Below, piece by piece: positions 6,423-26,924 of a stretch of DNA of 64,000 bases. Both the position numbers and the translations under genes were made by a program. A model generated the notes under the pieces. That model made no database searches, was not told where the DNA came from, and worked only from the letters and a program-made list of their open reading frames with translations. The DNA is from Roseococcus suduntuyensis. GTDB taxonomy: Bacteria > Pseudomonadota > Alphaproteobacteria > Acetobacterales > Acetobacteraceae. Numbering within the stretch: position 1 is the first letter of the stretch; the number at the start of each line of letters is the position of its first letter. The stretch spans positions 63,829-127,828 of the forward strand of contig NZ_JACIDJ010000007.1 in assembly GCF_014196305.1 (NCBI RefSeq), in the 5' to 3' direction.

Positions 6423-7706
6423 GCCTAGCCGGGCCACCAGGTTTTCCAGCCGCTCCTGCCCGCCCGAGCGCGGCCGGGGTTCCAGCCCTTCGACCAGCGC
6501 GCGGTCCGCGATTTCGGCCAGGCTGCCGGGCCAGGGGGCGCCGGCATAGCGTTCGCGCCGCGCCGCCTCCAGCCGCCCATCCTCGATGATGCGCGCGGCC
6601 CAGAGCAGCGCGGCGGCGCAGGCCTCCATGCCGCCCACATGGGCGTGCAGCAGGTCCTCAGGTGCGATGGATTGGCGGCGCAGCTTGGCGTCGAAGTTGA
6701 AGCCGCCGCTGCCCAACCCGCCCGCACGCAGGATTTCCAGCATGACGGGCACCAGCTCCTGCGCGTTGGTCGGGAACTGGTCCGTGTCCCAGCCGTTCTG
6801 CGGGTCGCCGCGGTTGATGTCCACGGAGCCCAGCACGCCGAGTGCCGCCGCCATCGCCACCTCATGCTCGAAGGAATGGCCGGCGAGGGTGGCGTGGTTG
6901 GCCTCGATGTTGACCTTCACCTCGCCCAGCAGCCTGTGCCGCACGAGGAAGCCGTAAACCGTCGCCACGTCGCGGTCATACTGGTGCTTGGTGGGTTCGT
7001 GGGGCTTCGGCTCGATCAGCAGCGTGCCGGTGAAGCCTATCTTGTGCTTGTGCTCCACGACGAGGTTCAGGAAGCGGCCCAACTGCGCGTCCTCCCGCGC
7101 CAGGTCGGTGTTGAGCAGCGTGTCATAGCCCTCGCGCCCACCCCAGAGCACGTAGTTCTCGCCCCCCAGGCGCTGCGTCACCTCCATGGCGTGGCGCACC
7201 TGGACGGCGGCGCAGGCGAAGACCTCGGGGTCGGGGTTGGTGGCGGCACCCGCCATGTAGCGCGGGTGGGAGAAGAGGTTCGCCGTGCCCCAGAGCAGCC
7301 TGATGCCGGTGCGCTGCATGTGCGCCGCCAGCACATCGGCCATGGTGTCGAGGTTGCGGGCGCCCTCGCGCAGGCTGGCCCCCTCCGGCGCCACGTCGCG
7401 GTCATGGAAGCAGAAGAAGGGCAGGCCCAGGCGCTCCATGAAGGCGAAACCGGCCTCGGCCTTCTGGCGCGCGCCCGCCATGGCGTCGGGCATGGCTTCC
7501 CAGGGGCGGGGCAGCGTGGCCGCGCCGAAGGGGTCCGCGCCCGAGGCCACGAAGGAATGCCAGTAGGCGACCGCGGGGCGCAGCCATTCGGCCATGCTGC
7601 GGCCCAGCACCGGCGCCTCCGGGCGCCAGTGGCGCCAGCCCAGTTCCTCCTGGCTGCCAGGGTCCAGGAAGGGCACGGGCGGGAGGGATTGGAAGATGTG
7701 GCTCAT
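6420..7706 (-). CDS. xylA: Xylose isomerase
   Basis: 428 residues, a normal length for class II xylose isomerases. Signature blocks are present: VLWGGREGY (about 189-197), [16 protein letters not shown] and [17 protein letters not shown], which hold the metal-binding Glu/His/Asp residues and the catalytic His region. It converts D-xylose to D-xylulose in the cytoplasm. It is the last gene of the long minus-strand run and overlaps xylB by ATGA (7703-7706), so the two are translationally coupled. GGGAG lies a few bases before the start. No xylose-specific transporter (XylFGH) is present; the run starts with Liv-type transporter genes instead. Confidence 0.96.
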
Positions 7707-9127
7707 CGGACGGTCTCCCGCATCAGGGGCTTCAGGAGGGGGTAGAGGTGCCGCCAGTGGGCGCGCGCCTCGGCCAAGGCTGGTTCGGGAAGGGCCTCGC
7801 CGAGGGTGGCGGGCGGGGTGCAGGTGGCGGTGGGGTCGGCGCCCGTGGCCAAGGCCGCAAGCCGCGCCGCACCCAGCGCCGGCCCCACCCCGGCATCGGC
7901 CACCAGCGTCAGCGGCCGGTCCAGCGCCGAGGCCAGCAGCCGCGCCCAGAGCCCCGAGCGCGCGCCGCCGCCGATCAGCGACAGGCGCGGGATGCGCCCA
8001 CCCTCCGCCTCCAGCGCGTCCAGCCCATCGGCCAGCGCGAAGGCCACGCCCTGCATGACGGCGCGCGCCATCTGGCCGCGCGTGGTGCCGGCCTCCAGCC
8101 CGAACCAGAGGCCGCAGGCGGTGGCATCGTCATGCGGCGTGCGCTCACCGGCGAGGTAGGGCAGGAACAGCACGCGGCCGGGTTCAGCAGCTTCGGCCTC
8201 GCGCGCCAGTGTGGCCTCGTCCGCGCCCAGGACGCTTGCCGCCCAGGCCAGCGCACCGCCCGCCGAGAGGATCACCGCCATGCGGTGCCACAGCCCCGGC
8301 AGGGCGTGGCAGAAGCTGTGCACCGTGCGCGCCGGGTCCGGGCGCGGCGCCGCATCGGCCACGAAGACCACGCCCGAGGTGCCCAGCGAGACGAAGGCCT
8401 GGCCGGGTGCCACGCAGCCCAGCCCCACCGCGCCCGCCGCATTGTCGCCTGCCCCGCCGGCCACCGGCACGCCGGCCGGGATGCCCCATTCGGTGTTCCG
8501 CACCTGGCCCGAGACGGCGCTGCCCTCCACCAGGCGCGGCATGTGGGCGCGGGTGAGGCCGGTCAGCGCCAGCATCTCGTCCGACCAGTCGCGCCGGGCC
8601 ACGTCGAGCCAGAGGGTCCCGGCCGCGTCCGACATCTCGGAGACCGCCTCGCCCGTCAGGCGCAGGCGCAGCCAGTCCTTGGGCAGCAGCACGCGGCGCG
8701 TGGCGGCGTGGATGTCCGGCTCCTGCGCGCGCAGCCAGGCGAGCTTGGGCGCGGTGAAGCCCGGCATGGCGCGGTTGCCGGCGATGCGCCGCGCGGCTTC
8801 GTCCAGCGCCGCGCATTCGCCCGCCGCGCGCCCGTCATTCCACAATATGGCCGGGCGCAGCACGCGGTCCGCCGCGTCCAGCACCACCGCGCCATGCATC
8901 TGCCCCGACAGCCCCACCGCCGCGACCTGCGCGCGCAGCGGGGCGGGCAATGCCTGCACGGCCTGGCTGGCGGCCTGCCACCACGCCTCCGGGTCCTGCT
9001 CGGACCAGCGCGGATGGGGGCGCTGCACCGTCAGCGGCGCGGAAGCCTGGGCCAGCACCTGCCCCCCCCCGTCCAGCAGCACCGCCTTGACGGCGGAGGT
9101 GCCGAGATCCACGCCGAGGAAGGTCAC
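7703..9127 (-). CDS. xylB: Xylulokinase
   Basis: 474 residues of the FGGY carbohydrate kinase family. The N-terminal phosphate-binding loop is [10 protein letters not shown], the substrate motif GLSGQMHG lies near residue 75, and the C-terminal ATPase part has [12 protein letters not shown]. It phosphorylates D-xylulose to xylulose 5-phosphate for the pentose phosphate pathway. It overlaps xylA (ATGA) and the upstream dehydrogenase (9124-9127, ATGA). Pairing with xylA supports xylulose as substrate over other FGGY substrates. Confidence 0.94.
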
Positions 9128-10260
9128 ACCACCGTCCAGGTGCCGCCCGCCCGCGCCGAGGCGATGGCGGCGGCCACGAAGCGCATGCCGCGCAGCCCAT
9201 CCTCAACGGTGGGCGTGGCGGCGCTGAGCGGGTCGGGCGCGCGGCCCTCGCGCCGCGCCGTGATCTGCTCGGCCGCGTCGCGGTAGATTTGCGCGAAGGC
9301 CTCCAGATAACCCTCCGGATGCCCAGCCGGGATGCGCGTGGCGTGGGCGGCGGCGGGGTGCAGCGCGCCGACCGCACGGGCCAGCACGCGCGGCGCCTCG
9401 CCCAGCGGGGTGTGGAGCAGCTGGTTGGGGTGTTCCTGGCTCCAGGCCAGGCCGCCCTTCTCGCCATAGACGCGCAGGCGCAGCGCGTTCTCATTGCCCG
9501 GCGCCACCTGCGAGGACCACAGCATCCCGCGCGCGCCGCCAGCGAAGCGCAGCAGCAGATGCGCGTTGTCATCCACGCGGCGGCCTTCGACGAAGCTCTG
9601 CACATCGGCCAGCACGCTCTCGACGCCGAGGCCCGTGACGAATTCCGCGAGGTGATGCGCGTGGGTGCCGAGATCGCCCAGCGAACCACCCAGCCCCGCG
9701 CGCGCCGGGTCGGTGCGCCATTCGGATTGCTTCTGGCCGGTCTCCTCCAACCGGGTGGAGAGCCAGTCCTGCGGGTATTCCACCTGCACCACGCGGATGG
9801 CGCCAAGCTCGCCCGCGCGCACCATCGCGCGCGCCTGCCGCACCATGGGGTGGCCGCTGTAGTTGTGGGTGAGGATGAAGACGCGCCCGGTGCGCGCCAC
9901 GGTGGCGGCAAGGTCCTCCCCCTGCTCCACCGTCAGCGCCAGCGGCTTGTCGCAGATCACGTCGAAGCCCGCTTCCAGCGCGGCCTTCGCGGGGGCGTGG
10001 TGCATGTGGTTGGGGGTGACGATGGCGATGACCTCCGCGCCATCCTCCCGCGCGCGCTCCCCCGCCAGCATCGCCGCGAAATTCGGATAGCCACGGATGC
10101 CGAGGTCGGCCGCGCTGTCCATGGCGCGTTGCGGGTCGGAGGCCAGCGCGCCCGCCACCAGCTCGAAGCAGCCATCGAGGCGTGCCGCCATGCGATGCAC
10201 GCCGCCGATGAAGGCGCCGCGCCCGCCCCCCACCATGGCGAGCCTGAGGCGCCGCGTCAT
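9124..10260 (-). CDS. Gfo/Idh/MocA-family NAD(P)-dependent oxidoreductase
   Basis: 378 residues. The N-terminal Rossmann domain has VGGGRGAFIGGVHR, VTPNHMHHAPAKAAL and the CDKPLAL motif typical of the family, with the catalytic-type Lys in CDKP. The C-terminal alpha/beta domain contains GDLGTHAHHLAEFV. The family oxidises hydroxyls of sugars, inositols and related polyols; the specific substrate cannot be read. ATGA overlaps on both sides place it in the sugar operon between the TIM-barrel isomerase and xylB. Confidence 0.9.
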   Translation of the reverse strand: MTRRLRLAMVGGGRGAFIGGVHRMAARLDGCFELVAGALASDPQRAMDSAADLGIRGYPNFAAMLAGERAREDGAEVIAIVTPNHMHHAPAKAALEAGFDVICDKPLALTVEQGEDLAATVARTGRVFILTHNYSGHPMVRQARAMVRAGELGAIRVVQVEYPQDWLSTRLEETGQKQSEWRTDPARAGLGGSLGDLGTHAHHLAEFVTGLGVESVLADVQSFVEGRRVDDNAHLLLRFAGGARGMLWSSQVAPGNENALRLRVYGEKGGLAWSQEHPNQLLHTPLGEAPRVLARAVGALHPAAAHATRIPAGHPEGYLEAFAQIYRDAAEQITARREGRAPDPLSAATPTVEDGLRGMRFVAAAIASARAGGTWTVV

Positions 10261-11318
10261 GGGGCGAGGCCCAGCATGCGGCGGTTCGCCGCCTCATCGG
10301 CGCCGGATGAGGCGAAGTCGTCGAAGGCCTTGTCGGTGACGCGGATGATGTGATCCGCGATGAAGCGTGCCCCCTCGCGCGCGCCATCCTCCGGGTGCTT
10401 CAGGCAGCATTCCCATTCCAGCACCGCCCAGCCCTCGAAGCCGAAGGCGGCGAGCTTGGAGAAGACCGCCTTGAAATCCACCTGCCCATCGCCCAGCGAG
10501 CGGAAGCGGCCCGCGCGGTCCACCCAGGGCTGGAAGCCACCATAGACGCCGACGCGGCCGGTGGGGCGGAACTCCGCGTCCTTCACATGGAACATGCGGA
10601 TGCGCTCGCGGTAGATGTCCAGGAAGGCCACATGGTCCAGCGCCTGCAGCACGAAATGGCTGGGATCGTAGAGGATGTTCGCGCGGGGGTGGTTGCCGAC
10701 CGCGTCGAGGAACATCTCGAAACTCGCCCCATCGTGCAGATCCTCGCCGGGATGGATTTCGTAGCAGACATCCACGCCCGCCTCGTCGAAGGCATCCAGC
10801 AGCGGGCGCCAGCGCCGCGCGAGTTCCCCGAAGGCCGTCTCCACCAGGCCCTGCGGGCGCTGCGGCCAGGGATAGACGAAGGGCCAGGCCAGCGCGCCCG
10901 AGAAGGTGGCATGCGCGTTGAGGCCCAGGTTGCGCGAGGCCTTCGCCGCGAGGCGCATCTGCTGCGTGGCCCATTCCTGCCGTGCCGCCGGGTTGCCGCG
11001 CACCTCGGGTGCGGCGAAGCCGTCGAAGGCCGCGTCATAGGCCGGATGAACCGCGACGAGCTGGCCTTGCAGATGGGTCGATAGTTCCGTCAGCGCCAGG
11101 CCGTGCTTCGCCAGCGTGGCCTGCACATCCTCGCAATAGGCGCGGCTTTCGGCGGCGCGCGCGAGGTCGAACAGCCGCCCATCCCAGGAGGGGATCTGCA
11201 CGCCCTTGAAGCCGAGCGAAGCCGCCCAGGCGGCGATGCCATCCAGCGTGTTGAAGGGCGCATCATCCCCCGCGAACTGCGCGAGGAAGATGGCGGGGCC
11301 CTTGATGGTGCGCATCAC
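10257..11318 (-). CDS. Sugar phosphate isomerase/epimerase-type TIM barrel
   Basis: 353 residues of the xylose-isomerase-like TIM-barrel (AP endonuclease 2) superfamily. Metal-ligand-type segments are visible: CYEIHPGEDLHDG (Glu), ILYDPSHFVLQ (Asp/His), MFHVKDAEF (His/Asp) and VLEWECC (Glu). Proteins of this kind act with Gfo/Idh/MocA dehydrogenases on sugars and inositols, and the next gene is such a dehydrogenase (ATGA overlap). It overlaps the SRPBCC gene upstream by 4 bp. The exact reaction is unknown. Confidence 0.85.
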   Translation of the reverse strand: MMRTIKGPAIFLAQFAGDDAPFNTLDGIAAWAASLGFKGVQIPSWDGRLFDLARAAESRAYCEDVQATLAKHGLALTELSTHLQGQLVAVHPAYDAAFDGFAAPEVRGNPAARQEWATQQMRLAAKASRNLGLNAHATFSGALAWPFVYPWPQRPQGLVETAFGELARRWRPLLDAFDEAGVDVCYEIHPGEDLHDGASFEMFLDAVGNHPRANILYDPSHFVLQALDHVAFLDIYRERIRMFHVKDAEFRPTGRVGVYGGFQPWVDRAGRFRSLGDGQVDFKAVFSKLAAFGFEGWAVLEWECCLKHPEDGAREGARFIADHIIRVTDKAFDDFASSGADEAANRRMLGLAP

Positions 11319-12229
11319 ACGCCCTCCGTCAGCTTGCGGCCCACGCTGTAGTAGGCCTTGAGATAGACGTCGTTCATGGTGTTCGGGATCAGCGCCAGGT
11401 CGTCCTGCGGGCTCGCCAGCCAGTCGCCGAACCAGGTGGCGAAGCAGTGGTTCCCGTCCGTCACCTGCCAGAGGCGCGGGCCGCTGATGTAGTGCATCCA
11501 GGGCAGCGGCGACTTGGTGATGCAGTAGGAATAGCTCATCTCCGCATCGTCCAGGTGCAGCAGCTTCTCGTGCAGGTGGCCGTCGCCGAACAGGAAGTCC
11601 CGCGTGGCGGAGACCTTGTCGCTGCGCGCGCCGTCCAGCATGTGCATCTTCGTGATGGCGTCATGCCAGCCGCCCATGCCGGCGAAGTCGCGGATCACGC
11701 CCCAGACGGCCGCGGCGGGTGCCGCGATGACCGTGCTGCACCACACCTTGTTGGGCGGGAAGCCGGCCCAGAGCGGGGCCTCCACCGGCGCGCGGCCGGG
11801 CAGCGCGCGCTTCAGCGCGTCCCACCCGCCCTGGAAGACGCCGTTGGAGATGATGTCCACATACTTCCCCGCATCCTCCGGCGCCTCGTCGAAGATGGCT
11901 TCCCATTCGGCGAAGGTGCGGTTCGTGTCGGTCACCGGCATCAGCCGAACGCGCGCGCGGTAGTTGGTGACGGGAAAGGCCGGCGTCTCGAAGTTGTAGG
12001 AGAAGCTGGTGGTGCGGTCGCACAGGTGCAGCAGCCGCTCGCGCACCATGGTGCCGTCCTGCAGGAAGAAGCGACGGATGCAGCCGACGACGTCGGAATC
12101 GAGGCCGTCCTCGATCTCGGAGCGCGCGATGCCCGGGTGCCAGGAGGGCAGCCCGTTGAAGTCGCGAATGGTGGCCCAGACGGTGGCGATGTTCGCGTCG
12201 AGGATGGTGGAGGCGTAGGCGCGGGCCAT
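11315..12229 (-). CDS. Tandem SRPBCC (START-like) domain protein
   Basis: 304 residues starting at ATG 12229, preceded by GAGGGGA. Two SRPBCC ligand-binding folds are recognisable, each beginning with an ASTILDANIATVWATIRDF-like segment: one at about 3-140, one at about 165-300 (STVIAAPAAAVWGVIRDFAG). The polyketide cyclase/START superfamily binds hydrophobic ligands or catalyses cyclisation or hydration; no catalytic residues are assigned. A longer reading frame to 12466 is not used because it runs through the neighbouring gene. Its presence in a sugar operon is unusual. Confidence 0.8.
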   Translation of the reverse strand: MARAYASTILDANIATVWATIRDFNGLPSWHPGIARSEIEDGLDSDVVGCIRRFFLQDGTMVRERLLHLCDRTTSFSYNFETPAFPVTNYRARVRLMPVTDTNRTFAEWEAIFDEAPEDAGKYVDIISNGVFQGGWDALKRALPGRAPVEAPLWAGFPPNKVWCSTVIAAPAAAVWGVIRDFAGMGGWHDAITKMHMLDGARSDKVSATRDFLFGDGHLHEKLLHLDDAEMSYSYCITKSPLPWMHYISGPRLWQVTDGNHCFATWFGDWLASPQDDLALIPNTMNDVYLKAYYSVGRKLTEGV

Positions 12230-12240
12230 GCGTGTTCCCC

Positions 12241-13071
12241 TCAGAAGCTGATCTGCTTGAAGGCGCGCGTCTGCGCCGTCAGGGCGGTCTCGGTCGGCAG
12301 GCGCTCCATGGAGGAGGCGCCGTAGAAGCCGTTGATGCCGGGCGTGTTCCGCAGCACCCAGGTGGCGTCCTCGGGCGAGGAGATGGGCCCGCCATGGCAC
12401 AGCACGATGATGTCCGGCCGCACGCGCCGCGCGGCCTCGGCCCATTCCGCGATCAGCGCCGGGCAATCCGTGAGCTTCAGCGCGGTCTGCGCGCCGATGG
12501 CGCCGCCCGTGGTGAGGCCCAGATGCGGCACCAGGATGTCCGCACCGGCGCGCGCCATCTCGGCCGCTTCGTCCGCGTTGAAGACATAGGGGGTGGTCAG
12601 CATGTCCTTCGCGTTCGCCATGCGGATCATGTCGATCTCATGCCCGAAGCCCATGCCGGTTTCTTCGAGGTTGGCGCGGAACACGCCGTCAATGAGGCCC
12701 ACGGTCGGGAAGTTCTGGACGCCGGCGAAGCCAAGCGCCTTCAGCTCGTCCAGCAGGTGGTCCATCAGCGCGAAGGGGTCCGTGCCGTTCACGCCCGCGA
12801 TCACGGGCGTGTGCTTGACCACGGGCAGCACCTCGCGCGCCATCTCCTTCACGATCTCGTTGGCGTTGCCATAGGCCAGCAGGCCGGCCAACGAACCGCG
12901 CCCCGCCATGCGGTAGCGGCCGGAATTGTAGATGACGATGAGGTCTATCCCGCCCGCCTCCTCGCACTTGGCGGAAAGCCCGGTGCCGGCGCCGCCGCCG
13001 ATGATGGGCTCGCGCCGCGCCACCATGTCGTGGAACTTGCGCAGCAACTCGCCACGCGTGGGGCGTTTCAT
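12241..13071 (-). CDS. PEP-hydrolase-family TIM-barrel protein
   Basis: 276 residues of the 'phosphoenolpyruvate hydrolase' family (PF09370, once called TIM-barrel signal transduction protein). Visible blocks: [44 protein letters not shown] and HLGLTTGG. It follows a Tm-1-like gene with a 1-bp overlap, a pair found together in many bacteria and some fungi. The enzymatic role is poorly established despite the name. Two further members of the same fold lie at 19178 and 19837, one as a stand-alone short protein and one as a regulator's sensor domain. Confidence 0.87.
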
Positions 13072-14270
13072 CAGGCGATCTCCCGGAAGGCGGCCAGCGC
13101 GGCATCGGCGAAGGCGCGGTCATTGATGGCGGCCGGCACTTCGACCAGGCGCCGGTTGGGGGCGGGAACGAAGCCCGCGCGGATGGTCTCGAACAGCGCG
13201 GCATCGGCGGCCGGGTCGTGGAAGGGCATGCCCGGCACATCAATGGCCGAGACGCCGCCCAGCGGCAGCAGGAAGCGCACCGGGCCTTCCATCCGGTTCA
13301 GCCGCGCCACGAGGAATTCCCCGATGGCGCGGTTCTCCTCCGGCGTCGTCCGCATCAGCGTCACCTGCGGGTTGTGGACGTAGAGGTTGCGGGACTGGAA
13401 GCGCGCCGGCACCGTCTCCTTCGCGCCGAAATTCACCATGTCCACGGCACCGACGCTGCCCACATAGGGGAGGCGCGTGCGGATGACGGCACCGAGCCGA
13501 TCCTCCGTGCAGGGGAAGACGCCACCCACCAGGAAGTCCGGCACCTCCGTCGTCGTGATGTCGAGCAGGGCCGCGACCAGGCCGGAATCCGCCAGCTTCT
13601 CCATGCTCTGCCCGCCCGCGCCGGTGGCGTGAAAGACGTAGCATTCATGGGTGGCCTCCAGCGCCTCGCGCAGCATGGTCACGCAGGCGGTGGTGACGCC
13701 GAACATGGAAAGCCCAAGCCCCGGCTTCTCGGCCGCCCCCGCCGCGGGCGGCGCGTGCAGCGCCATGCCGGCCGCCGCATGCGCCGCATTGGCGATGACG
13801 CGGCGCGAGATGCCGTTGATCCCCGCCACATCCACCACCGAATACATCATGGCGAGGTCGGACGGCCCCACATAGGGCGCGACATTGCCCGAGGCCACGG
13901 TGCTCACCATCAGCTTGGGCGTGCCGATGGGCAGCGCGCGCATGGCCTGGGTGACGAGGGCGGTGTTGCCCGAACCACCCATGCCCAGCACCGCGCCGAT
14001 GTCGTCCTGCGCGGTGAGCCAGCGTGTCAGCGCCTGCGCCATGGCGGCCACCGCGGCGCCGCGGTCCTCGCCGCCCAGCACCACGCCGGCACCTTCCGGG
14101 TGGTGCGCCGCGATCTCGGCCGCGGTCACATCGGCGCCCTGCCCCGCACCGCGTGTGCCGACATCCACCAGCACCGGCACCGCACCCGCGCGCTTGAGGC
14201 AATCGGCCGCGAAGCGCAGCTCCTCGCCCTTCGTGTCCATCGTGCCGATGACGTAGACCTTCGCCATCAT
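13071..14270 (-). CDS. Tm-1-like ATP-binding protein (UPF0261)
   Basis: 399 residues from ATG 14270, which has GAGGGGG just upstream. The family name comes from the tomato virus-resistance protein Tm-1. The N-terminal part holds [11 protein letters not shown] and [12 protein letters not shown], the middle [15 protein letters not shown], and the C-terminal half begins near [14 protein letters not shown]. Tm-1 proteins consist of an ATP-binding half and a PEP-hydrolase-like TIM barrel; in bacteria these are often separate adjacent genes, as here. The metabolic role is unknown. The position between liv transporter genes and sugar enzymes suggests a catabolic step. Confidence 0.87.
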
Positions 14271-14280
14271 TCCATCCCCC

Positions 14281-14985
14281 TCAATGATGCCCGCCCACCG
14301 CGACGCCGAGGTAGCGGCGCTGCGTTTCGGTGTCCTCGGCCAGGGCGCGCGCCGGCATGGTGGCGGCGATGCGCCCCGTGACCATGATGGCCACATGCGC
14401 CGCGACCTCGGTCGCGACGCGCAGGTTCTGCTCCACCAGCAGCAGGCGCATGCCGTCCTTGGGCAGGTCGCGCAGCACGCCGATCAGGTGGTCCACGATG
14501 ACGGGGGCCAGGCCCTCGCTCGGCTCGTCCATCACGATGACCTTGGGGTTCATCAGCAGCGCGCGTGAGATGGCGAGCATCTGCTGCTCGCCGCCGGACA
14601 GCTCCGTGCCGCCGTTGTTGCGGCGTTCGGCTAGGCGCGGGAAGGTTTCGTAGATGCGCGGGATGGTCCAGCGGCCGCCGCGCTGGGCCACCAGCCGCAG
14701 ATGCTCATGCACCGAGAGCGAGGGAAAGGTGCGCCGCCCCTGCGGCACCAGCGCCACCCCGCGCCGCGCGATGCGATAGGGTGCCAGGCCCGACAGCCGC
14801 GCGCCATCCAGCGTGATCTCGCCCTCGCTCGCCGCCACCAGCCCCGATATGGCGCCGCACAACGTCGTCTTGCCCATGCCGTTGCGGCCGAGGATGGCCA
14901 GCGGCGCCTCCCCCAACTCCAGCGAGACGCCCTGCAGGATATGCGCCTGGCCGAAGCGGACATGCAGGTCGCGCACGGTCAGCAT
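14281..14985 (-). CDS. livF: Branched-chain-type ABC transporter ATPase LivF
   Basis: 234 residues. Walker A GRNGMGKT (about 34-41), Q-loop VPQGRR, signature LSGGEQQ and Walker [14 protein letters not shown] are all present. It is the LivF-type ATPase of the HAAT family, pairing with LivG. It overlaps livG by one base. Substrates of this family are branched-chain amino acids, amides, urea and also aromatic or small organic acids; the sugar genes downstream make a non-amino-acid substrate possible. Confidence 0.93.
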
Positions 14986-15755
14986 CAGTGCCCGCCCCCG
15001 AGGTAGATGGCCTGCACCACCGGGTCGTCCTCGATGCGGTCGGGCGTGGCTTCCACCACCACCTCGCCATCCTTCATGACGGTGACGATGTCGGCGGCGG
15101 GCAGCGCGATGTCCATGTCGTGCTCGATCAGGATCAGCGTGAGCGTGCGCGGCAATTCGCGCAGCAGGCGCAGCAGTTCCGGCCGGTCGCCGGGAGAGAG
15201 GCCGGCGGCCGGTTCGTCCAGCATCAGCACGCGCGGATCGCCCGCCAGCGCCATGCCGACCTCCAGCTGCCGCCGCTGCCCGTGCGAGAGGTTGACCACC
15301 TCCACACCCAGCAGATGCGACAGGCGCATCCGGTCCGCCAGCGCGCGCGCCTGCGCGAGGCTTGGGTCGTCGCGGCCGGGCCGCAGGAAGGAGAAGCGGC
15401 GGGGCCTGAGCCCGCGCACTGCCACGAAGAGGTTGTCCAGCACCGACAGCCCGTTGAACAGCAGCGAGGTCTGGTAGGTGCGGCCGATGCCCAGCCGCGT
15501 GCGCTGGTGCGGCTTGAGGCGCGTGATGTCCGCGCCGAACAATTCGATGCGGCCCGCGGTGGGCGGGAAGTCGCCGCAGATGGTGTTGAACAGCGTCGTC
15601 TTGCCCGCCCCATTGGGGCCGAGCACGGCTCGCCGCTCCCCGGGCATGACGTCGAAGCTGACGTCACGCACGGCCTGCAAGGCGCCGAAGCGGCGGCTGA
15701 CGCCGGTCAATCGAATTGCGGGCTGCACTCGGTTCTTTCCAGGAAGGACGAACAT
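14985..15755 (-). CDS. livG: Branched-chain-type ABC transporter ATPase LivG
   Basis: 256 residues. Walker A GPNGAGKT, signature LSHGQRRQLEVG and Walker B VLMLDEPAAGLSP are visible, plus the LivG-type insertion before the signature. The first ten residues may be an annotation extension; an internal GTG (VQPAIRL) is an alternative start. The distance of about 136 bp from the solute-binding gene upstream contains hairpins, so expression of livGF may be reduced relative to the SBP. Confidence 0.92.
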   Translation of the reverse strand: MFVLPGKNRVQPAIRLTGVSRRFGALQAVRDVSFDVMPGERRAVLGPNGAGKTTLFNTICGDFPPTAGRIELFGADITRLKPHQRTRLGIGRTYQTSLLFNGLSVLDNLFVAVRGLRPRRFSFLRPGRDDPSLAQARALADRMRLSHLLGVEVVNLSHGQRRQLEVGMALAGDPRVLMLDEPAAGLSPGDRPELLRLLRELPRTLTLILIEHDMDIALPAADIVTVMKDGEVVVEATPDRIEDDPVVQAIYLGGGH

Positions 15756-15891: not shown

Positions 15892-17169
15892 CTACGAAGC
15901 AGCCGGCACGCAGCCCGGGTTGTCCCGCGACGGCGCGCCGAGGGCGAGGAACTGCTGCTCCGGCGTGTTCAGCGTCTGGTTCACCGCGTCGGCGCGCGCG
16001 AAGGCCACCACCTGCGCCCGTCCGTCACGCTCCTCGATGCGGTTGAGGAAGATGTCCGAGATGGCCTGGCGGTTGTGGTCCAGCCGCACCGCCGCCCCGG
16101 TGGGCGCCGTGATGCGCGCGGCCGCGAGCGCACGCTGGAAGGCCTGCTGGTTGTTGCCCAGGTCGCCATCCACCTCGCGCAGCGCGTGCAGGATGCCGTA
16201 GAGGTTGGTGGTGTAGTTCACGCCATGGATGGAGGGCGACTGGAACCCGCCCTCGTTCAGCCAGCGGCGGCGGTAGCGCTCCACGAACTCGCGCCAGGTG
16301 GGGTCATCAATGACGTCGGCGATGGGCCCGCCCGAAATCATCCCCACCATCACGCGCCGGTGCGGCCCGCGCGCCGAGAGCATCGTCTGGTCCGCCATGA
16401 TGGAGCCCGCGATCAGCGGCTTGTTCCCGCCCGACTGCGCGTATTGCGTCATGAAGGCGAGCCCGTCCGTGCCGCCATGCACCACCACCACCGCACCCGC
16501 CGAGGAGCGGTTGATCTGCGCGATCTGCGCCGAGAAATCCGTCGTGCCGAGCGGCGCCCAGTAGTGCTGCACCCGCCCGCCGGCGCGGCAATACTCGATG
16601 TTGAAGCCGAAGACCTGCGCGTAGGGGAAGGCGTAGTCACCCGCCGCCACCGCGACCTCGCGGATGTTCATCTGGCGGAAGACGTGGTTGCCCAGCCCCG
16701 CCATCCATTGCGTGCCATCGGTCGAAAAGCGGAAGAAGTTGGGCGAGGGGTTGCGTAGTGTCGTGTCCGCCGCACCGGAGGAGCCGTTGACGATGGTCTT
16801 GCCCGTCAGCGTGCGGGAATAGTCGCGCAGCGCGATGCCCTCGGCGCCCGAGAGCGGCCCCAGGATGATATCCACATTGTCCTGCTCGATCAGCTTGCGC
16901 GCGCGGGCGAGCGCCACGTCGGCCTGGGCATTGGAGCTTTCGCGGATGAACTCGATGCGCCGCCCGCCGATGGTGGAGTTGATGCGCTCCAGCTCCATCT
17001 GCACACAGCGATAGGCGTCCTGCCCGCCGGTGGCGAAGGGGCCCTCCAGCGTGGTCAGCCCGCCGAGCCGAATGGGCGCGCGCTGCGCGATGGCGGGCGA
17101 GGCGAGGGCCGCGCCCGCAAGCCCCGCGCTGCCGAGAAGCGTCGCGCGGCGGGTGGTGGTGATGGACAT
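15892..17169 (-). CDS. Branched-chain-type ABC transporter substrate-binding protein
   Basis: 425 residues from ATG 17169, which has AGGAGG 8 bp upstream; a longer frame to 17211 is rejected. An N-terminal export signal of Tat-like form (TTRRATLLGSAGLAGAALAS) ends at AIA. The mature part is a Peripla_BP_6 fold: IRLGGLTTLEGPFA, GPLSGAEGIALRDYS and a C-terminal EFVERYRRRW. It delivers substrate to LivHM in the periplasm. In this operon the SBP sits between livM and livG. The ligand is unknown. Confidence 0.9.
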   Translation of the reverse strand: MSITTTRRATLLGSAGLAGAALASPAIAQRAPIRLGGLTTLEGPFATGGQDAYRCVQMELERINSTIGGRRIEFIRESSNAQADVALARARKLIEQDNVDIILGPLSGAEGIALRDYSRTLTGKTIVNGSSGAADTTLRNPSPNFFRFSTDGTQWMAGLGNHVFRQMNIREVAVAAGDYAFPYAQVFGFNIEYCRAGGRVQHYWAPLGTTDFSAQIAQINRSSAGAVVVVHGGTDGLAFMTQYAQSGGNKPLIAGSIMADQTMLSARGPHRRVMVGMISGGPIADVIDDPTWREFVERYRRRWLNEGGFQSPSIHGVNYTTNLYGILHALREVDGDLGNNQQAFQRALAAARITAPTGAAVRLDHNRQAISDIFLNRIEERDGRAQVVAFARADAVNQTLNTPEQQFLALGAPSRDNPGCVPAAS

Positions 17170-17207
17170 GGTGTTTCCTCCTTGCGTGTTGTTGTTGTGG
17201 TGGAAAT

Positions 17208-18200
17208 TCACTTGTCGGCCGCGCGGCGCCCGAGCAGGCGGCGCAGCCGCGCCCCTACCCCCAGCACCCCATCGGGCGAGGCCAGCACGATGACCAGGAA
17301 CACAAGGCCGATCAGCGTGTTGAAGCGGTCGCGGTCGTAGATGGTGGCCGCGAAGGTGTCGAAGACGGTGAAGATGAGGGAGCCCAGGAAGGCGCCCACC
17401 GGATGCCCCAGCCCGCCGATGACGGCCATGATCAGCACGTTCACCGTGGCCCCCAGGCCGATCGTCCCGGGCGATATGCCGATGTTGTAGATGGTGGCCA
17501 GCACACCGCCGCAGCCCGCGATGAAGCCCGCCACGCCGAAGGCCGCGATGCGATGCAGCGCCACGTTGTAGCCCAGCGCCGAGACCCGCCGTGGATTGTC
17601 GCGGATGCCCTGCAGCACCAGCCCGAAGGGCGAGCGCACGAGATACATCACGCCTGCGAAGAGCAGCACGGCCGTGCCCAGCGTGACGTGGTAGAAGACC
17701 CAGGGGTTGCGGAAATCGAGACCCAGCAGGCTCGGCCCCACCACGTTGCGGATGCCCTCATAGCCGTTGAACCAGGTGATGTTCGTCTCGACGAAGCGGA
17801 ACACGCCCATGGAGACCGCCAGCGTGATCATCAGCAGGTAGATGTCGCGCGTGCGCACCGCGATGGCGCCCACCAGCAGCCCCATCAGCGTCGCCGCCAG
17901 CACGCCCAGCGGAATGGCCAGCGCATAGCCCGCGCCGCCCACGATGCGCGGCACGGCACCTTCCACGAAGATGGCCAGCGCATATCCGGCCACCCCCGCG
18001 ATCATCATCTGCGCGAGCGAGACGAAGCCGCCATAGGTGGCCAGGAAGGTCAGCGACATGGCGATGATGCCGAAGACCAGCGCCCGGCCCAGGATGTTGC
18101 CCGTCCAGAACCCCGCCTGGTTGGCCGGCAGCACGGCGTGCAGCAGCCAGGGCAGCGCCAGCAGCAGCAGTGCCGCAGCGATGGCGAGCCCCCTACGCAC
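17208..18200 (-). CDS. livM: Branched-chain-type ABC permease LivM
   Basis: 330 residues with about nine to ten hydrophobic segments and the LivM hallmark around GGFVSLAQMMIAGVAGYALAI (about 60-80). The EAA-like loop is near LGYNVALHRIAAFGVAGFIAG. It overlaps livH by 8 bp. A basic tail (RLRRLLGRRAADK) ends the protein. Together with LivH it forms the inner-membrane channel. Confidence 0.93.
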   Translation of the reverse strand: MRRGLAIAAALLLLALPWLLHAVLPANQAGFWTGNILGRALVFGIIAMSLTFLATYGGFVSLAQMMIAGVAGYALAIFVEGAVPRIVGGAGYALAIPLGVLAATLMGLLVGAIAVRTRDIYLLMITLAVSMGVFRFVETNITWFNGYEGIRNVVGPSLLGLDFRNPWVFYHVTLGTAVLLFAGVMYLVRSPFGLVLQGIRDNPRRVSALGYNVALHRIAAFGVAGFIAGCGGVLATIYNIGISPGTIGLGATVNVLIMAVIGGLGHPVGAFLGSLIFTVFDTFAATIYDRDRFNTLIGLVFLVIVLASPDGVLGVGARLRRLLGRRAADK

Positions 18201-19068
18201 GGCCCAGGATCCCCTGCGGGCGCAGCGCCAGCACCGCCACCATCATCACGAAGGTCAGCACCACGGAATAGGTGGGGAACATGGCCTGGCCCAGCTGCTC
18301 GGCCAGGCCCACCAGGATGGCGCCCACCGCCGTGCCGGTGACCGAGCCCATGCCGCCCACGATGACCACCACCAGCGAGATCAGCAGGAAGCGCCCATCC
18401 TGCCCCATGGCCAGCGGCTGCGCGGTGGAGCCGATGACGCCCCCCAGCCCGCACAAAGCCGCGCCCAGCGCGAAGACCGCCACGCCCACCAGCGGCACAT
18501 TCACGCCGCAGGCGCCCAGCATCTCGCGGTCATCCACGCCGGCGCGGATCATCATGCCGAGCCGCGTGCGGTTCAGCAGCAGCCACAGCCCCACACCGAC
18601 CGCCACGGCGACGCCGATCTGCACCAGGCGGAAGGTCGGGTAGCCGCCCACCAGCGGCACCTGGGTGGAGCCGAAGATGGCGTCCGGCGCGAAGAATTGC
18701 CGCGGGTTGCCGCCATAGATGGCCAGGATCTGGTCGGCCGCGATGATGGAGATGCCGATGGTGACGAGCGCCTGGCGCAGCTCCTGCCCCTGCATCCAGC
18801 CCAGCAGCACCTGTTGCAGCAGCGCGCCGAAGACCGCCGCCGCGAGCACGCCCGCCGCCAGCCCCGCATACCAGGCCCACCAGAGGTCCTGGTCATAGAG
18901 CGGTTCGAACACCGCGTAGCCCACATAGCCGGCCACGAGATACAGCGTGCCATGCGCCATGTTCACCACGCGCATCAGCCCGAAGATCAACGAGAAGCCG
19001 CTGGCCACGATGAAGTAGAGGGCAGCCAGGGTCAGCCCGTTCAAGACGATGGTGGCCGCCAATTCCAT
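18193..19068 (-). CDS. livH: Branched-chain-type ABC permease LivH
   Basis: 291 residues from ATG 19068, chosen because MELAATIVLNGLTL aligns with the usual LivH beginning and GGGAG stands upstream; ATG 19086 and GTG 19092 are alternatives. Eight or so membrane segments are seen, with FSLIFGLMRVVNMAHG near the start, the LivH signature. It is the first gene of the 12-gene minus-strand run, so the promoter should lie in 19069-19177, shared with the divergent short TIM-barrel gene. Confidence 0.92.
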   Translation of the reverse strand: MELAATIVLNGLTLAALYFIVASGFSLIFGLMRVVNMAHGTLYLVAGYVGYAVFEPLYDQDLWWAWYAGLAAGVLAAAVFGALLQQVLLGWMQGQELRQALVTIGISIIAADQILAIYGGNPRQFFAPDAIFGSTQVPLVGGYPTFRLVQIGVAVAVGVGLWLLLNRTRLGMMIRAGVDDREMLGACGVNVPLVGVAVFALGAALCGLGGVIGSTAQPLAMGQDGRFLLISLVVVIVGGMGSVTGTAVGAILVGLAEQLGQAMFPTYSVVLTFVMMVAVLALRPQGILGRA

Positions 19069-19177
19069 GCGGTCGTTCGCTCCCATGGCCACTCATGCGG
19101 CGGCCTGGGTCCAGCCTCAACCGGAGGCGGCCTCGGCAACAAGATGGAATTTTGTTTGTTTTTGGGTAAGATTGGGT

Positions 19178-19747
19178 ATGGCAGCCACCCTCCACCCCGC
19201 CGCATGTCTCGACGGCATCTCCGTAAGGCAGCGGGCGCGCCGGGTCTTCCTGCCCGCCCTGGCGCCCTTCCCGCCCGCGCTCTGGCCGCTGGTGGTGCAT
19301 CTGCCGGTGCTGGACGTGAACGGGGCGCTGGTGGCTGCACTGGCGGCCCAGGCGCCCTTCCGCGCGGCCCCGCCCATCGCCGCCATCTTCGCCTGCGACC
19401 CCTTCCTGCGCCCGCGCGACATGGCCGCCAGCCTGCGCGCGGCCGGCATCACGGAGGTGGTGAACCTCCCCAGCGTCCAGGCGCATGAGGGCGAGGCGGC
19501 GGCCGCGCTGGGCGCCGTGGGCTATCGGGCGGAACGCGAATTCCGCGTGCTGCTGGCACTCGCCGAGCACGGGTTGCGACCCATCGCCTATGCCGCCCGT
19601 CAGGAGGAGGCGGAGGCGGCCCTCGCCCTCGGCCTGCGCCGCCTGCTGCTGCCCGCCGGCCCCGGCTGGGCGAAGCTGGCCAGCCATGTGGCCGTGGAAG
19701 GCGGCGAGGCGCTGGCATGGGAAGACGCGCCGTTTTCCCGCGGCTGA
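19178..19747 (+). CDS. Short PEP-hydrolase-like TIM-barrel protein
   Basis: 189 residues from ATG 19178. The central part aligns by eye with the PEP-hydrolase protein at 12241: AAIFACDPFLRPRDM matches [30 protein letters not shown] matches [16 protein letters not shown], and AERE...LALAEHGLRPIAYAARQEEA matches the following helix. The first strand of the barrel and the C-terminal third are missing or much altered, so it is a shortened or specialised paralogue. It is divergent from livH and convergent with the regulator. Its TGA stop lies in a family-A repeat. Function unknown; decayed paralogue and regulatory partner are both possible. Confidence 0.65.
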   Translation: MAATLHPAACLDGISVRQRARRVFLPALAPFPPALWPLVVHLPVLDVNGALVAALAAQAPFRAAPPIAAIFACDPFLRPRDMAASLRAAGITEVVNLPSVQAHEGEAAAALGAVGYRAEREFRVLLALAEHGLRPIAYAARQEEAEAALALGLRRLLLPAGPGWAKLASHVAVEGGEALAWEDAPFSRG

Positions 19748-19839
19748 TTCACGCCTTTGGCGTTCCGCCAAAGCCGATCAGACGCCTCGCCGCGGCTGAT
19801 TCACGCCTTTGGCGTTCCGCCAAAGCCGATCAGACGCTA
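19741..19839. repeat. Stem-loop repeat family A, two tandem copies
   Basis: Two copies (19741-19785 and 19793-19839, period 52) with inner stem GCCTTTGGCG / CGCCAAAGCC, which has one G:G mismatch on the complementary strand. They lie exactly between two convergent genes and supply both stops: TGA in CGGCTGATTC for the short TIM-barrel gene, and TAG (complement of 19837-19839) for the regulator. Confidence 0.82.
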
Positions 19840-21474
19840 GGCCTCCAGCCCCAACCGTCGCATCCGGTTGTAGAGCGTCTTCCGCGCGATCCCGAGGAAG
19901 GCCGCCGTCTCGCCACGGCGGAAGCGGTGGCGGCGCAGCGCGTCCATGATCCAGGCGCGTTCGTCCAGCGTCTCGGGGCCGGCGGGGGGTGCCGCGGGGC
20001 CCAGCGCCGCCTCCAGCGCCGCGACGGTCACGCGCCCGCCCGGCGTCTCGGTCAGCGTCCGCAGCAGCACTTCGCGCAATTCGCGCAGATTGCCCGGCCA
20101 GGACCGCGCCATCAGCAGGCGCAGCGCGGCAGGCTCCACCGCGCTGGCGGCGCGGCCCGCCTCGCGCAGCATGGCGCGGGTGATGAGTGGGATGTCCTCC
20201 AGCCGGTCACGCAGCGGCGGCACCACCAGGCGCTGCGCCGACAGCGCCCGCGCCAGCCCCTGCGCGCCGGGCGGATGCACCAGCACCAGGCGCGCGCGCG
20301 GCAGGCGTTCCTCCGGCTTGCCGAAGCGGGCGAAGGCCCCGCGCTCGATCCAGTCCGACAGGCGGGCGCGCAGCACGGGCGGCAGGGCGTCCGCCTGCTC
20401 GATCACGACGGTCAGCCCCTGGCGGCCCAGCAAGCCGCGCGGCGGGTCGGCCGAGAGGGCGGCCGCAATGTCCTCCCGCGCGTCCAGGAAAAGCGGCCCG
20501 CCCGCGCGCCCCGCCCCCGCATGCAGCGCCCGCGCGACGGTGGAGCGGCCCGAGCCAGGCTCCCCCTCCACCACCACGGGCAACTCGGTCGCGACCAGGC
20601 GGGCCACGCGCTGGGCCAGCGTGCGTGCCGCCGCCGAACGCCCCACCATGCCGCGCGGCAGGGCGGGCGAGGCCGCCTCGGCCGGGCGCAGCAACGCCGC
20701 GGTCTTGAAGGCCGAGGTGCTCTGCATCACCGAGAGTTCCAGCGGCAGGCGGTCGAGCGTGGAGCCGCCCACGTAGCCATCCGCGCGCGAGGCGTCGCAG
20801 ACCTGGAGCATGTGCTGCGCGTCCACGATGGGCCCGCCTTCCACCAGGCAGCGCAGGCCCGGCGCGCGGCGGCGAAGGGCCGCGAAGACGCGGCGCGCGC
20901 GCTCGGCCGCGTCCTCCAGCCGCACGCCACCGGGCACGCCCATGCTGCCGCCGGCGTTCCAGCCGAAGTTCAGCACCAGGCGCTCCACCCCCGCATCGGC
21001 CATGGCCTCGGCCTCGGCGCGGGTCTTGGCATAGGCGAGGGTGGCGAGGCCCTGGGCGCGGGCCTCGGCGAGCAGCGCCACCTCGCGCCCGAAGCCCAGG
21101 CCCGCTTCCTCCAACGCCGCGCGCAATGCGCCGTCGAGATGGATCGCCGTAGGGAAGTTGGCGATGCCGTGGTAGCCGGCCTCGCGGATGCCGGCCACGA
21201 AGCGGGGCAGGTCCAGCCGGGGGTCGCAGGCGGCGGCGCCGAAGAAGACGGGGATGCGGACCCGGTCCAGGATTTCGCGCCGGGCGAAGCTGTCGGTGAA
21301 GGGGTTGCTGTCGGCGATGGGCAGCATGGCGGCCAGCGAGGGCGCGCCCATGACGCGCAGCCGGCCGGCGTTCAGCACCAGCAGGAAATCCGCCCCGCCA
21401 TCGGCGGCGGCCCGGGCCGTCATGCCGAGGCCGATAGCCGCCCCCACCAGGATGTCCCGCTTCAAGCCGCGCAT
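19837..21474 (-). CDS. Regulator: PEP-hydrolase-like TIM barrel + AAA+ + Fis HTH
   Basis: 545 residues from ATG 21474. Residues about 1-260 are a PEP-hydrolase-family barrel (ILVGAAIGLGMTARAAADGG, VFFGAAACDPRLDLPRF, YHGIANFPTAIHLDG), used here as a probable sensor. About 275-480 resemble a sigma-54 activator AAA+ domain, but Walker A is GEPGSGRS with Arg for Lys, and the GAFTGA loop is absent. The C terminus (about 505-545) is a Fis-type HTH (GETAAFLGIARKTLYNRMRR). Without GAFTGA it probably does not activate sigma-54 promoters; TyrR-like sigma-70 control is more likely. The neighbouring liv/xyl operon, which encodes a paralogue of the sensor barrel, is the obvious target. Confidence 0.83.
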   Translation of the reverse strand: MRGLKRDILVGAAIGLGMTARAAADGGADFLLVLNAGRLRVMGAPSLAAMLPIADSNPFTDSFARREILDRVRIPVFFGAAACDPRLDLPRFVAGIREAGYHGIANFPTAIHLDGALRAALEEAGLGFGREVALLAEARAQGLATLAYAKTRAEAEAMADAGVERLVLNFGWNAGGSMGVPGGVRLEDAAERARRVFAALRRRAPGLRCLVEGGPIVDAQHMLQVCDASRADGYVGGSTLDRLPLELSVMQSTSAFKTAALLRPAEAASPALPRGMVGRSAAARTLAQRVARLVATELPVVVEGEPGSGRSTVARALHAGAGRAGGPLFLDAREDIAAALSADPPRGLLGRQGLTVVIEQADALPPVLRARLSDWIERGAFARFGKPEERLPRARLVLVHPPGAQGLARALSAQRLVVPPLRDRLEDIPLITRAMLREAGRAASAVEPAALRLLMARSWPGNLRELREVLLRTLTETPGGRVTVAALEAALGPAAPPAGPETLDERAWIMDALRRHRFRRGETAAFLGIARKTLYNRMRRLGLEA

Positions 21475-21487
21475 GTTGGGGAAGGTA

Positions 21488-21506
21488 TGGTGGAGCTGAG
21501 GGGAAT
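21488..21506. repeat. attL core (tRNA-Ala 3'-end duplicate)
   Basis: TGGTGGAGCTGAGGGGAAT is identical to 31849-31867. It is the displaced original 3' end of the tRNA gene and lies 13 bp before the regulator start codon at 21474 (minus strand). Confidence 0.93.
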
Positions 21507-21914
21507 ACCCCAAACCTGCATCATCAACGCCTTAGCCTGGCAACCGGCGCCGAAACCGTCACGGGAAATCAATCGCTTACGGGCGAACTGGCTACCGTTT
21601 CTGGTGGTGAAGCAGTAGCACACGCACCACCCGCCGCGCCAGAGGCTTCGCCCATCGGCCGGTGGCAGATCGGCGACACGCTGCGCGAGAAGAAGCGGGC
21701 TGGCATCCACGACTACGAGCTGGCCGGCATCGCGCCCTATACCACGCGGGGCGGTAAGGCTTCGGCGCTGCTGACGTGGCGCGGGACGTGCGCCATCTGC
21801 GGCGCCGGCTTCACCTGCACCACGGGCCGCGCCCCGTCCGACCTCACGCGGACCTGCCCCACCCATCGCGGCAAGTATCGCCCCGGCCGGAAGGGAGGGC
21901 GGCGCAATGCCTGA
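21507..21914 (+). CDS. 3' part of a gene split by the att site (zinc-ribbon-like)
   Basis: An open frame of 136 codons that ends with TGA at 21912-21914 but has no in-frame ATG, GTG or TTG, either here or across attL into the chromosome. The C-terminal part looks like a genuine protein: a putative zinc ribbon CAICGAGFTC ... CPTH and a basic tail KYRPGRKGGRRNA. It overlaps the primase start by 8 bp (ATGCCTGA). Joined through the 19-bp core to the right end of the element, the frame continues back to GTG 31757 or TTG 31820, giving 172 or 151 residues. It is therefore probably expressed only from the circular form. Confidence 0.7.
   Translation, partial: TPNLHHQRLSLATGAETVTGNQSLTGELATVSGGEAVAHAPPAAPEASPIGRWQIGDTLREKKRAGIHDYELAGIAPYTTRGGKASALLTWRGTCAICGAGFTCTTGRAPSDLTRTCPTHRGKYRPGRKGGRRNA
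21587..21597 (+). other. Candidate integrase arm-type site, left
   Basis: ACTGGCTACCG is identical to 31773-31783 at the right end, where an inverted copy also occurs. In the circular form these would flank the core on both sides (82 bp from it on this side), as arm-type sites of lambda-like integrases do. Confidence 0.4.
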
Positions 21915-24132: not shown

Positions 24133-24139
24133 GGGGTGG

Positions 24140-24239
24140 AGGGGTGGAGGCTGGTGGAGGCTGAAACCGTTAATCGCCCACGTGCGCGCGCGCGCGCATG
24201 GCAATGGAACGGGGAAGGTATCCACCAGCCTCCACCCCT
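24140..24239. repeat. 19-bp inverted repeat around an alternating GC tract (possible origin)
   Basis: AGGGGTGGAGGCTGGTGGA (24140-24158) and its exact complement TCCACCAGCCTCCACCCCT (24221-24239) flank 62 bp that contain a run of alternating C/G at 24185-24197. The left arm overlaps further GTGGAGG repeats beginning at 24134. The region 24133-24407 has no gene. Position directly after the primase fits a satellite replication origin; a transcription terminator is the alternative, but no T-tract follows. Confidence 0.5.
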
Positions 24240-24407
24240 GGGCACCCACCACCCGCCCGCACCCATGCATCTCGCGCATTCGTTACGGATCGGCCATGCG
24301 TCTAGGTTCTTCCTGGCGCCCTTCGACCTGCGGGTAGTTCGCGCCGCTCCATCGCGCCACGTTCCGGAAATTTCCCAAGTATCATCACCTCGAAAGGACA
24401 TTGACCG

Positions 24408-24830
24408 ATGCCCAAAGCCCCCGCCCCGGATTTGCCGGATACCTGCACGTCCAGTCAGCTTGCGAAGCTGCTGGGCCTGAGTGAGCGCGTCATTGCCGGC
24501 CGGCGCCTCGATGGCCGGTTGCCGGTGCATGACGGTGCGATTGACCTCCGGGCGCTATGCCGGGCCGGGCTGAACGCTGGCACGAAACGCCTGAGCTTGG
24601 AGAAGTTGAACCGAGAGGCTTTCAGCTTCGCGCACCACGTCGCGGGCAAGGCGGCTGCGGCGGCAGTCGCGCCCCGGCCTGGTGAGACGCCCGGCCAAGC
24701 TGCGGCGCGTGCGATGGACCGCGCCATGATGGACGACGATACGTTCATCTGGCCCGAGAGCTGGTCGGAGACGGATGAAATCAACTTCGCGGATTACGCC
24801 GATCTTCCGGAAGATGAGGCAGCCGCGTAG
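24408..24830 (+). CDS. Small HTH protein, possibly Nu1/TerS-like
   Basis: 140 residues. Residues about 12-55 (CTSSQLAKLLGLSERVIAGR ... DGAIDLRAL) read as a winged HTH of the Nu1/small-terminase or AlpA type, followed by an Ala-rich region and an acidic tail (WSETDEINFADYADLPEDE). AAAGGA lies 13-8 bp upstream of the ATG. If it is a small terminase, it could redirect a helper phage's packaging motor, as in other satellites; that is inference only. A plain DNA-binding regulator is the alternative. Confidence 0.5.
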   Translation: MPKAPAPDLPDTCTSSQLAKLLGLSERVIAGRRLDGRLPVHDGAIDLRALCRAGLNAGTKRLSLEKLNREAFSFAHHVAGKAAAAAVAPRPGETPGQAAARAMDRAMMDDDTFIWPESWSETDEINFADYADLPEDEAAA

Positions 24831-24868
24831 GCGCCGAACACATTGATGAGTGGCGGCGGCTGACACTG

Positions 24869-24897
24869 AAAGGGGGTGCCAACGTGGCACCCCCTTT
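24869..24897. terminator. Bidirectional hairpin terminator candidate
   Basis: AAAGGGGGTGCCA and TGGCACCCCCTTT form a 13-bp perfect stem with an ACG loop. A- and T-runs are at the stem base. It follows the small HTH gene by 39 bp. Confidence 0.75.
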
Positions 24898-25038
24898 GGG
24901 CGGGAAGCAGCCCCGCGCCCGTGGAACGTAAATCCGCTTGCGCCCTGGATTCCGCGCAGCGTAGGTTGAAGCGGCCGGACGAAGCGCGCCAACGCTTCAC
25001 CCGGCCTAACCGCAACGTGTTCGACAAGGAACAACGTC

Positions 25039-25476
25039 ATGGCTGATAGCCATCTTACCACCACGAATCCGTCTGATGTGAAGCGGCGCGCCGCCCTTGT
25101 GGCCGGTGCTGCGATGTTCGCCGCGCCGGCTGCGGCCAGCGCCGATCCTGACGCCCGGCTGCTGGCCCTGCTGATCGAGACGCGCGCGGCCCATGCGGCC
25201 ATTGTGCGGGCATACAATGAGGCCGAGGACATGCCCGCTGACGCGGTTCTGGCGCCGCTGTATGCCCGCCTCGATGCGGCGCGGGATGAGATGGCAGCTA
25301 CCCCGGCGCGCGGCGTGCTGGGCGCGCTGGCGAAGGCCGCGCGCATCGCGGACAACCTGAGCGACAACGGCAGCCATGGTGAGCCGGGCTATACACTCGA
25401 CTGTAACGACGCCCCGGTGGGCGCGAGCCTAGCGGCCGATCTGGCGCGGCTGCTGCCGGTGGGGGTGCAGGCATGA
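25039..25476 (+). CDS. Hypothetical element protein
   Basis: 145 residues, not recognised. The segment RRAALVAGAAMFAAPAAASA near the N terminus looks like a Tat/Sec signal peptide, but twin-Arg strings of this sort also occur in cytoplasmic phage proteins. The rest is Ala-rich and helical with an acidic patch (EAEDMPADA). AAGGA lies upstream of the ATG, and the gene overlaps the next by 4 bp (ATGA). Confidence 0.6.
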   Translation: MADSHLTTTNPSDVKRRAALVAGAAMFAAPAAASADPDARLLALLIETRAAHAAIVRAYNEAEDMPADAVLAPLYARLDAARDEMAATPARGVLGALAKAARIADNLSDNGSHGEPGYTLDCNDAPVGASLAADLARLLPVGVQA

Positions 25477-25733: not shown

Positions 25734-25759
25734 CCGCGCCCATCCCGGCCGAAATAGAG

Positions 25760-25784: not shown

Positions 25785-25789
25785 CATAT

Positions 25790-25841: not shown

Positions 25842-25847
25842 CTCGGC

Positions 25848-26912: not shown

Positions 26913-26924
26913 CGGGGGCCGCGC

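Follow-up and report, generated by a model that had tools for sequence, protein, structure and literature searches.

A degenerate relative of sigma-54 activators with a PEP-hydrolase-like barrel, and its predicted operator at a neighbouring Tm-1/PEP-hydrolase operon

The window analysed here, a stretch of 64,000 nucleotides from Roseococcus suduntuyensis, carries a regulator gene (REG) beside a putative uptake and catabolic operon, with a small barrel gene between the two (Table 1). The REG frame, whose stop codon ends at 19837, has two candidate starts, TTG 21513 and ATG 21474, of which we prefer the ATG because the codons 5’ of it fall within a copy of a tRNA-Ala 3’ end, an att site. Numbered along the 558-aa ORF, the Pfam family PEP_hydrolase (PF09370) covers residues 19-271 (E 2e-72; profile positions 13-266 of 267), a partial match to Sigma54_activat and Sigma54_activat_2 begins at residue 289, AAA_lid_14 spans residues 435-510 and HTH_8 residues 518-553. 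A sequence-only reading of this DNA had already assigned the N-terminal part to the family of the enzyme encoded at 12241, followed by an AAA+ domain without GAFTGA and with Arg in Walker A, and by a Fis helix-turn-helix (HTH), all of which is borne out by these matches and by a Walker A that reads GEPGSGR (Lys to Arg). The GAFTGA loop, hallmark of sigma-54 enhancer-binding proteins, is deleted, and Walker B reads VVIEQ instead of hhhDE (DE to EQ), a change that the earlier reading did not contain.

Table 1. Features of the REG locus in window coordinates
Feature	Position	Strand	Remarks
SRPBCC, sugar-phosphate-isomerase-like, Gfo/Idh and xylulokinase-like genes	7703..12466	-	downstream on the operon strand
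PEP-hydrolase-like enzyme (PF09370)	12241..13071	-	catalytic paralogue of the REG sensor
Tm-1/UPF0261 protein	13071..14279	-	
livG and livF ATPase genes	14281..15755	-	
Periplasmic substrate-binding protein (PF13458)	15892..17211	-	
livM-like permease	17208..18200	-	from operon position and place between livH and binding protein elsewhere
livH-like permease	18193..19092	-	first gene of the putatively controlled operon
Conserved TTG, likely -35 of the livH operon promoter	19140..19142	-	about 20 bp downstream of the repeat
Predicted operator, tandem repeat ATACCCAATCTTACCCA	19163..19179	-	10-bp period, pointing at livH
Shortened PEP-hydrolase-like barrel protein	19178..19747	+	about 189 aa; transcribed divergently from livH and convergently with REG
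REG	19837..21474	-	PF09370 TIM barrel, degenerate AAA+, Fis HTH; 545 aa from ATG 21474
REG Fis-type HTH (RRGETAAFLGIARKTLYNRMRRLG)	19840..19977	-	
REG AAA+ domain	20005..20643	-	residues 278-490, no GAFTGA
REG Walker B-like TVVIEQADAL	20383-20412	-	
REG Walker A GEPGSGR	20545-20565	-	
REG sensor domain, (beta/alpha)8 barrel	20701..21459	-	residues 6-258
REG Glu212 codon	20839-20841	-	beta-7 end, replaces enzyme His226
REG Asn169 codon	20968-20970	-	beta-6 end, replaces enzyme His183

The AlphaFold model of REG, built with 39 homologues (mean pLDDT 81, pTM 0.50), shows all eight barrel strands; the packing between domains is uncertain at this pTM, and the AAA+ domain was modelled without ligand. 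In Foldseek searches its N-terminal part matches all six chains of 2p10 with a target TM of about 0.80-0.81, and the rest of the model matches structures of NtrX, NtrC1, LuxO and VpsR, so that, as modelled, the AAA+/HTH part is enhancer-binding-protein-like. Across 59 regulators of this kind, 8 have a canonical motor (GAFTGA, GK, DE) and 51 lack GAFTGA and show decay of Walker A/B. The canonical ones belong to Gammaproteobacteria, one Chelativorans, Verrucomicrobiota and Planctomycetota; several of the GAFTGA-less ones are missing Walker A altogether, while the HTH core RKTLYN persists.

The enzyme of the operon matches PF09370 at 429 bits and is close to PDB 2p10. The gene order of REG, the small barrel gene and livH through Tm-1 to PEP-hydrolase is repeated in five other Acetobacteraceae loci, and a sixth is rearranged such that the small barrel gene is divergent from Tm-1 itself. 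A scan of named genomes gave 50 loci (L049-L098) with homologues spanning REG wholly or largely, and hosts of REG homologues are found among Alpha- and Gammaproteobacteria, Verrucomicrobiota and Planctomycetota. Homologues are also present in 36 plasmid records, rhizobial symbiosis plasmids among them, where RefSeq names them sigma-54-dependent Fis family regulators or PEP hydrolase family proteins. The genes for Tm-1 and PEP-hydrolase adjoin REG in nearly all sufficiently long loci, and the Liv transporter does so in most, although it should be noted that loci were chosen by similarity to an alphaproteobacterial query and these proportions are not prevalences. The adjacency of REG to the operon is kept across families, and the view of REG as a regulator with a barrel as input, conserved beside a Tm-1/PEP-hydrolase operon, thus holds in nearly all loci examined.

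Do the sensor and the enzyme recognise the same ligand, as the sequence-only reading proposed? In a comparison of 51 enzymes and 59 sensors, the strand-end motifs GxG, GR.R, N-F-P, GGP, G-x-S and an Arg are common to both groups, and the loss of all pocket residues from the regulator, which had been set as the refuting condition for a shared ligand, is not the case. However, His183 and His226, both invariant in the 51 PF09370 enzymes, are replaced by Asn in 86% and by Glu in 97% of the sensors, respectively; the GAFTGA-containing sensors likewise all lack these histidines, and REG with Asn169 and Glu212 falls outside the catalytic subgroup. Of the strand-end positions that are invariant in the enzymes, 36 in all, only 14 persist in at least 80% of sensors; the other 22, which include both His and the beta-3 loop, are changed. 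This retention is no higher than elsewhere in the barrel (32/81, p = 0.6), and we therefore reject the idea that the kept pocket residues prove a shared ligand. The proposal is thus upheld as far as the common loops are concerned and weakened by the loss of both histidines and the many altered positions. Together with the lasting gene neighbourhood, the common loops make an identical ligand a possibility that we would bet against, if only mildly. Our own reading is that the REG barrel is a non-catalytic, remodelled binding barrel and, at 33% identity to the neighbouring enzyme, an old paralogue that may bind a related but different metabolite.

In the GAFTGA-less loci, a tandem repeat with consensus TTACCCAATnTTACCCA, its units 10 bp apart and oriented toward the operon, sits just upstream of a conserved TTG. 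Unsupervised counting of gapped 4-mer pairs, which makes no prior assumption, detected ACCC-N4-TTAC in 27 of 38 GAFTGA-less operon upstream regions, where any pair in shuffles reached at most 11. At a score of 13-14 out of 14, the REG loci (909 kb) contain 37 sites and control enhancer-binding-protein loci (553 kb) contain none. The window’s copy shares bases with the small barrel gene’s start codon, and a search of the 4.14 Mb genome that tolerated one mismatch gave no second site. A TTG follows 20-21 bp 3’ of the repeat at 21/38 sites, compared to 0.6 per offset elsewhere, and the distance from repeat to start codon varies from about 90 to more than 400 bp. A hexamer resembling a -10, suitably spaced from the TTG, scores above all control offsets and is weak in the window; this element is poorly conserved, and column-by-column conservation of a -10 was not demonstrable across the repeat sites. 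If the TTG is the -35, the centre of the repeat would lie near -63. Class I activators bind around that distance, and the repeat would thus occupy a class I activator position. GAFTGA-containing loci instead carry weaker TTACYC-N4-TTACYC variants, often facing each other, which precede the -24 element by roughly 60-115 bp and would by placement be in the usual enhancer position. A structured RNA at the locus was considered and rejected, as Rfam matches were absent from 18900-21600, and a full-text literature search for the repeat returned unrelated papers only. Operator-like repeats were also seen on pNGR234a, at 919-935 and 5929-5945 of its locus (L130), one before a sugar ABC transporter operon and the other before Tm-1, which suggests a two-operon regulon. 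Another such repeat lies 5’ of a Tm-1/PEP-hydrolase operon at L011:3731-3747, in an incomplete genome in which no regulator was found.

We infer that REG binds this repeat and, most likely, activates from it. A role as repressor on the same site, relieved by the ligand, would fit the overlap between the window’s repeat and the start of the divergent small barrel gene, and TyrR-type relatives both activate and repress according to PMC4374768. We nevertheless regard repression as unlikely, since for livH the repeat is placed ahead of the -35, at the spacing of a class I activator, and since the GAFTGA-containing relatives, whose canonical motor implies activation, carry their repeats in enhancer position. 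It is also conceivable that a different regulator binds the repeat and that the target of REG lies elsewhere. Dimers with a Fis-type HTH do not usually bind tandem direct repeats, and another protein could occupy this one. Against this, a site found once in the genome suggests a local regulator dedicated to it, the conserved DNA-binding gene of this locus is REG, and related repeats are common to GAFTGA-containing and GAFTGA-less loci, as is the HTH; a foreign binder therefore seems quite improbable to us.

The state of the motor is mirrored in the promoter. Upstream of the first operon gene, a -24/-12 site with a score of at least 13.0 is present in each of the five GAFTGA-containing loci whose operon start is readable, and in none of 39 GAFTGA-less loci, where the maximum score is 11.8 (Fisher p 9e-7); 5’ of livH in the window, a search for such a site gave nothing above background. 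A single loss of GAFTGA suffices in a tree built without the AAA+ columns, on a weakly supported branch, and because the loss may be a single event, the association is strong circumstantial evidence rather than 44 independent observations. Two Chelativorans species form a natural pair in this respect: sp. YIM 93263 has the canonical GAFTGA form and a perfect -24/-12 site, and sp. ZYF759 the GAFTGA-less form and the tandem repeat. A missing sigma-54 was considered as the cause of GAFTGA loss and rejected, as rpoN is present in the window’s own genome; it is still found in 28 of 30 genomes examined, and the promoter switch is therefore specific to this operon. As such, the paired change of motor and promoter is a clear case of an enhancer-binding protein swapping its polymerase partner, with sensor, DNA site family and target operon kept. 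That REG itself works as a sigma-54-dependent enhancer-binding protein, the annotation given to many homologues in RefSeq, would agree with its Sigma54_activat matches, with rpoN in the genome and with such annotation on several plasmids, but we reject this dependence as very improbable given the absent GAFTGA, the altered Walker A and B and an operon without a -24/-12 site. Scarcely credible is a decaying, pseudogene-like relic, even with AAA+ motifs lost and upstream DNA replaced by a mobile element, since the ORF is intact, the HTH is invariant and all three domains are under purifying selection (dN/dS 0-0.29), which, together with orthologues in two congeners (97% identity) and in other Acetobacteraceae (about 71-73%), also shows that REG is not a chance ORF.

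Upstream of REG, a mobile element of about 10.4 kb (21488-31867) is integrated at the 3’ end of tRNA-Ala(CGC) (31849-31924), bounded by a 19-bp att repeat, ATTCCCCTCAGCTCCACCA, at 21488-21506 and 31849-31867. In two congeners (L034 and L035) this element is absent and the tRNA lies 13 nt before the REG ATG, so that the insertion may have replaced the REG promoter and changed its expression. Downstream, between the convergent 3’ ends of REG and the small barrel gene, a 45-bp unit that contains a perfect hairpin (CTTTGGCG-TTC-CGCCAAAG) occurs twice, at 19740-19784 and 19792-19836, the second copy ending at the REG stop codon; the pair resembles a bidirectional terminator that has been duplicated.

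The sequence-only reading implied a third paralogue, and this is indeed present: its ORF (19178-19747) matches PF09370 at 34.7 bits. Proteins of this type measure about 190-240 aa, are modelled with a pLDDT of 93 and have 2p10 as best structural match. They retain D-P-F, N-x-P-T/S, D-G and usually the beta-6 His, and are without the Arg loops, the beta-7 His and the C-terminal part; the kept part of the pocket runs from beta-3 to beta-6, usually with the His that REG has lost. Full-length versions occur in exactly nine of 299 genomes of the order, namely those with REG, and in none of the 57 genomes that match the family only via the enzyme or other relatives. From 60 loci we recovered 48 small barrel genes, several of the remaining loci being cut by contig ends. 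The gene evolves faster yet is constrained (dN/dS 0.17-0.38), and its homologues (L034-L039, L049-L098) are annotated elsewhere just as PEP hydrolase family protein or hypothetical protein. One could imagine a switch of three paralogues, in which the enzyme would make or consume a metabolite, the dead REG barrel would sense it, and the small barrel would join or compete with that of REG as a dedicated co-sensor or anti-activator; we offer this tentatively and hold it to be rather doubtful.

We propose REG to be a one-component regulator whose ancestor was a sigma-54 enhancer-binding protein. The REG barrel, keeping substrate-type loops with both invariant histidines exchanged, would probably bind a pathway metabolite without turnover, and its AAA+ domain, which lacks the sigma-54-contacting loop and ATPase residues, would serve as an oligomerisation scaffold, if anything. 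The Fis HTH would bind the predicted repeat TACCCAATCTTACCCA before livH, upstream of a sigma-70-type -35, and from there REG would control, most likely activate, the livHM-SBP-livGF-Tm-1-PEP-hydrolase operon without sigma-54, an account that, judged from the DNA and its relatives, we consider likely. That REG most likely controls the adjacent operon is indicated by the promoter switch together with a dedicated repeat in 19069-19177, the interval proposed earlier for its binding. This would correct the common sigma-54-dependent annotation for a regulator of rhizobial symbiosis plasmids and many Alphaproteobacteria. Moreover, the repeat supplies a single concrete predicted DNA target and offers a testable reporter for an uncharacterised uptake/catabolic operon with Tm-1 and PEP-hydrolase homologues, and compound screening on a repeat-driven promoter would be a direct way to the operon’s substrate.

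The domain architecture of REG is already known, RefSeq annotating homologues as sigma-54-dependent Fis-family regulators. In the open-licence literature we found nothing functional on the Tm-1/PEP-hydrolase substrate or on y4oT-y4pA, and no description of the paired motor and promoter change, the dedicated repeat or the obligate small barrel partner, which are what is new here. The whole REG sensor resembles Mll9387 (PDB 2p10; PF09370, older name TIM-br_sig_trns) at about 32% identity and by model match, but in REG the barrel is fused to AAA+ and HTH, and both invariant histidines are replaced. The same architecture, beside Tm-1 and PEP-hydrolase genes, is found on the M. japonicum plasmid NC_002679 and in the y4p region of NGR234 pNGR234a; these members are usually called sigma-54-dependent, and y4pA is handled as a sigma-54 gene in one paper (PMC9069715), yet they are GAFTGA-less like REG. 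Photorhabdus plu1011, annotated as a TIM-br_sig_trns putative sigma-54 activator (PMC2422844) and also beside Tm-1 and PEP-hydrolase genes, is likened to REG by its annotation. Plant Tm-1-like proteins, fusions of UPF0261 with a TIM barrel (PMC5028733), join families that lie side by side at the REG locus, but without a DNA-binding part. The NtrX structure 5m7n is a fold match of REG, and GAFTGA-less relatives of enhancer-binding proteins are known in TyrR, DhaR, HupR and VpsR, the first three reported to be sigma-70-dependent (PMC3162934). Like TyrR, HupR and DhaR, REG combines an AAA+ domain of enhancer-binding-protein ancestry and a Fis HTH without GAFTGA, and all four share with it the descent from sigma-54 activators. 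Unlike REG they have other sensors, and what distinguishes REG from them is that loss of the motor goes together, across lineages, with a change of promoter type at one and the same target operon.
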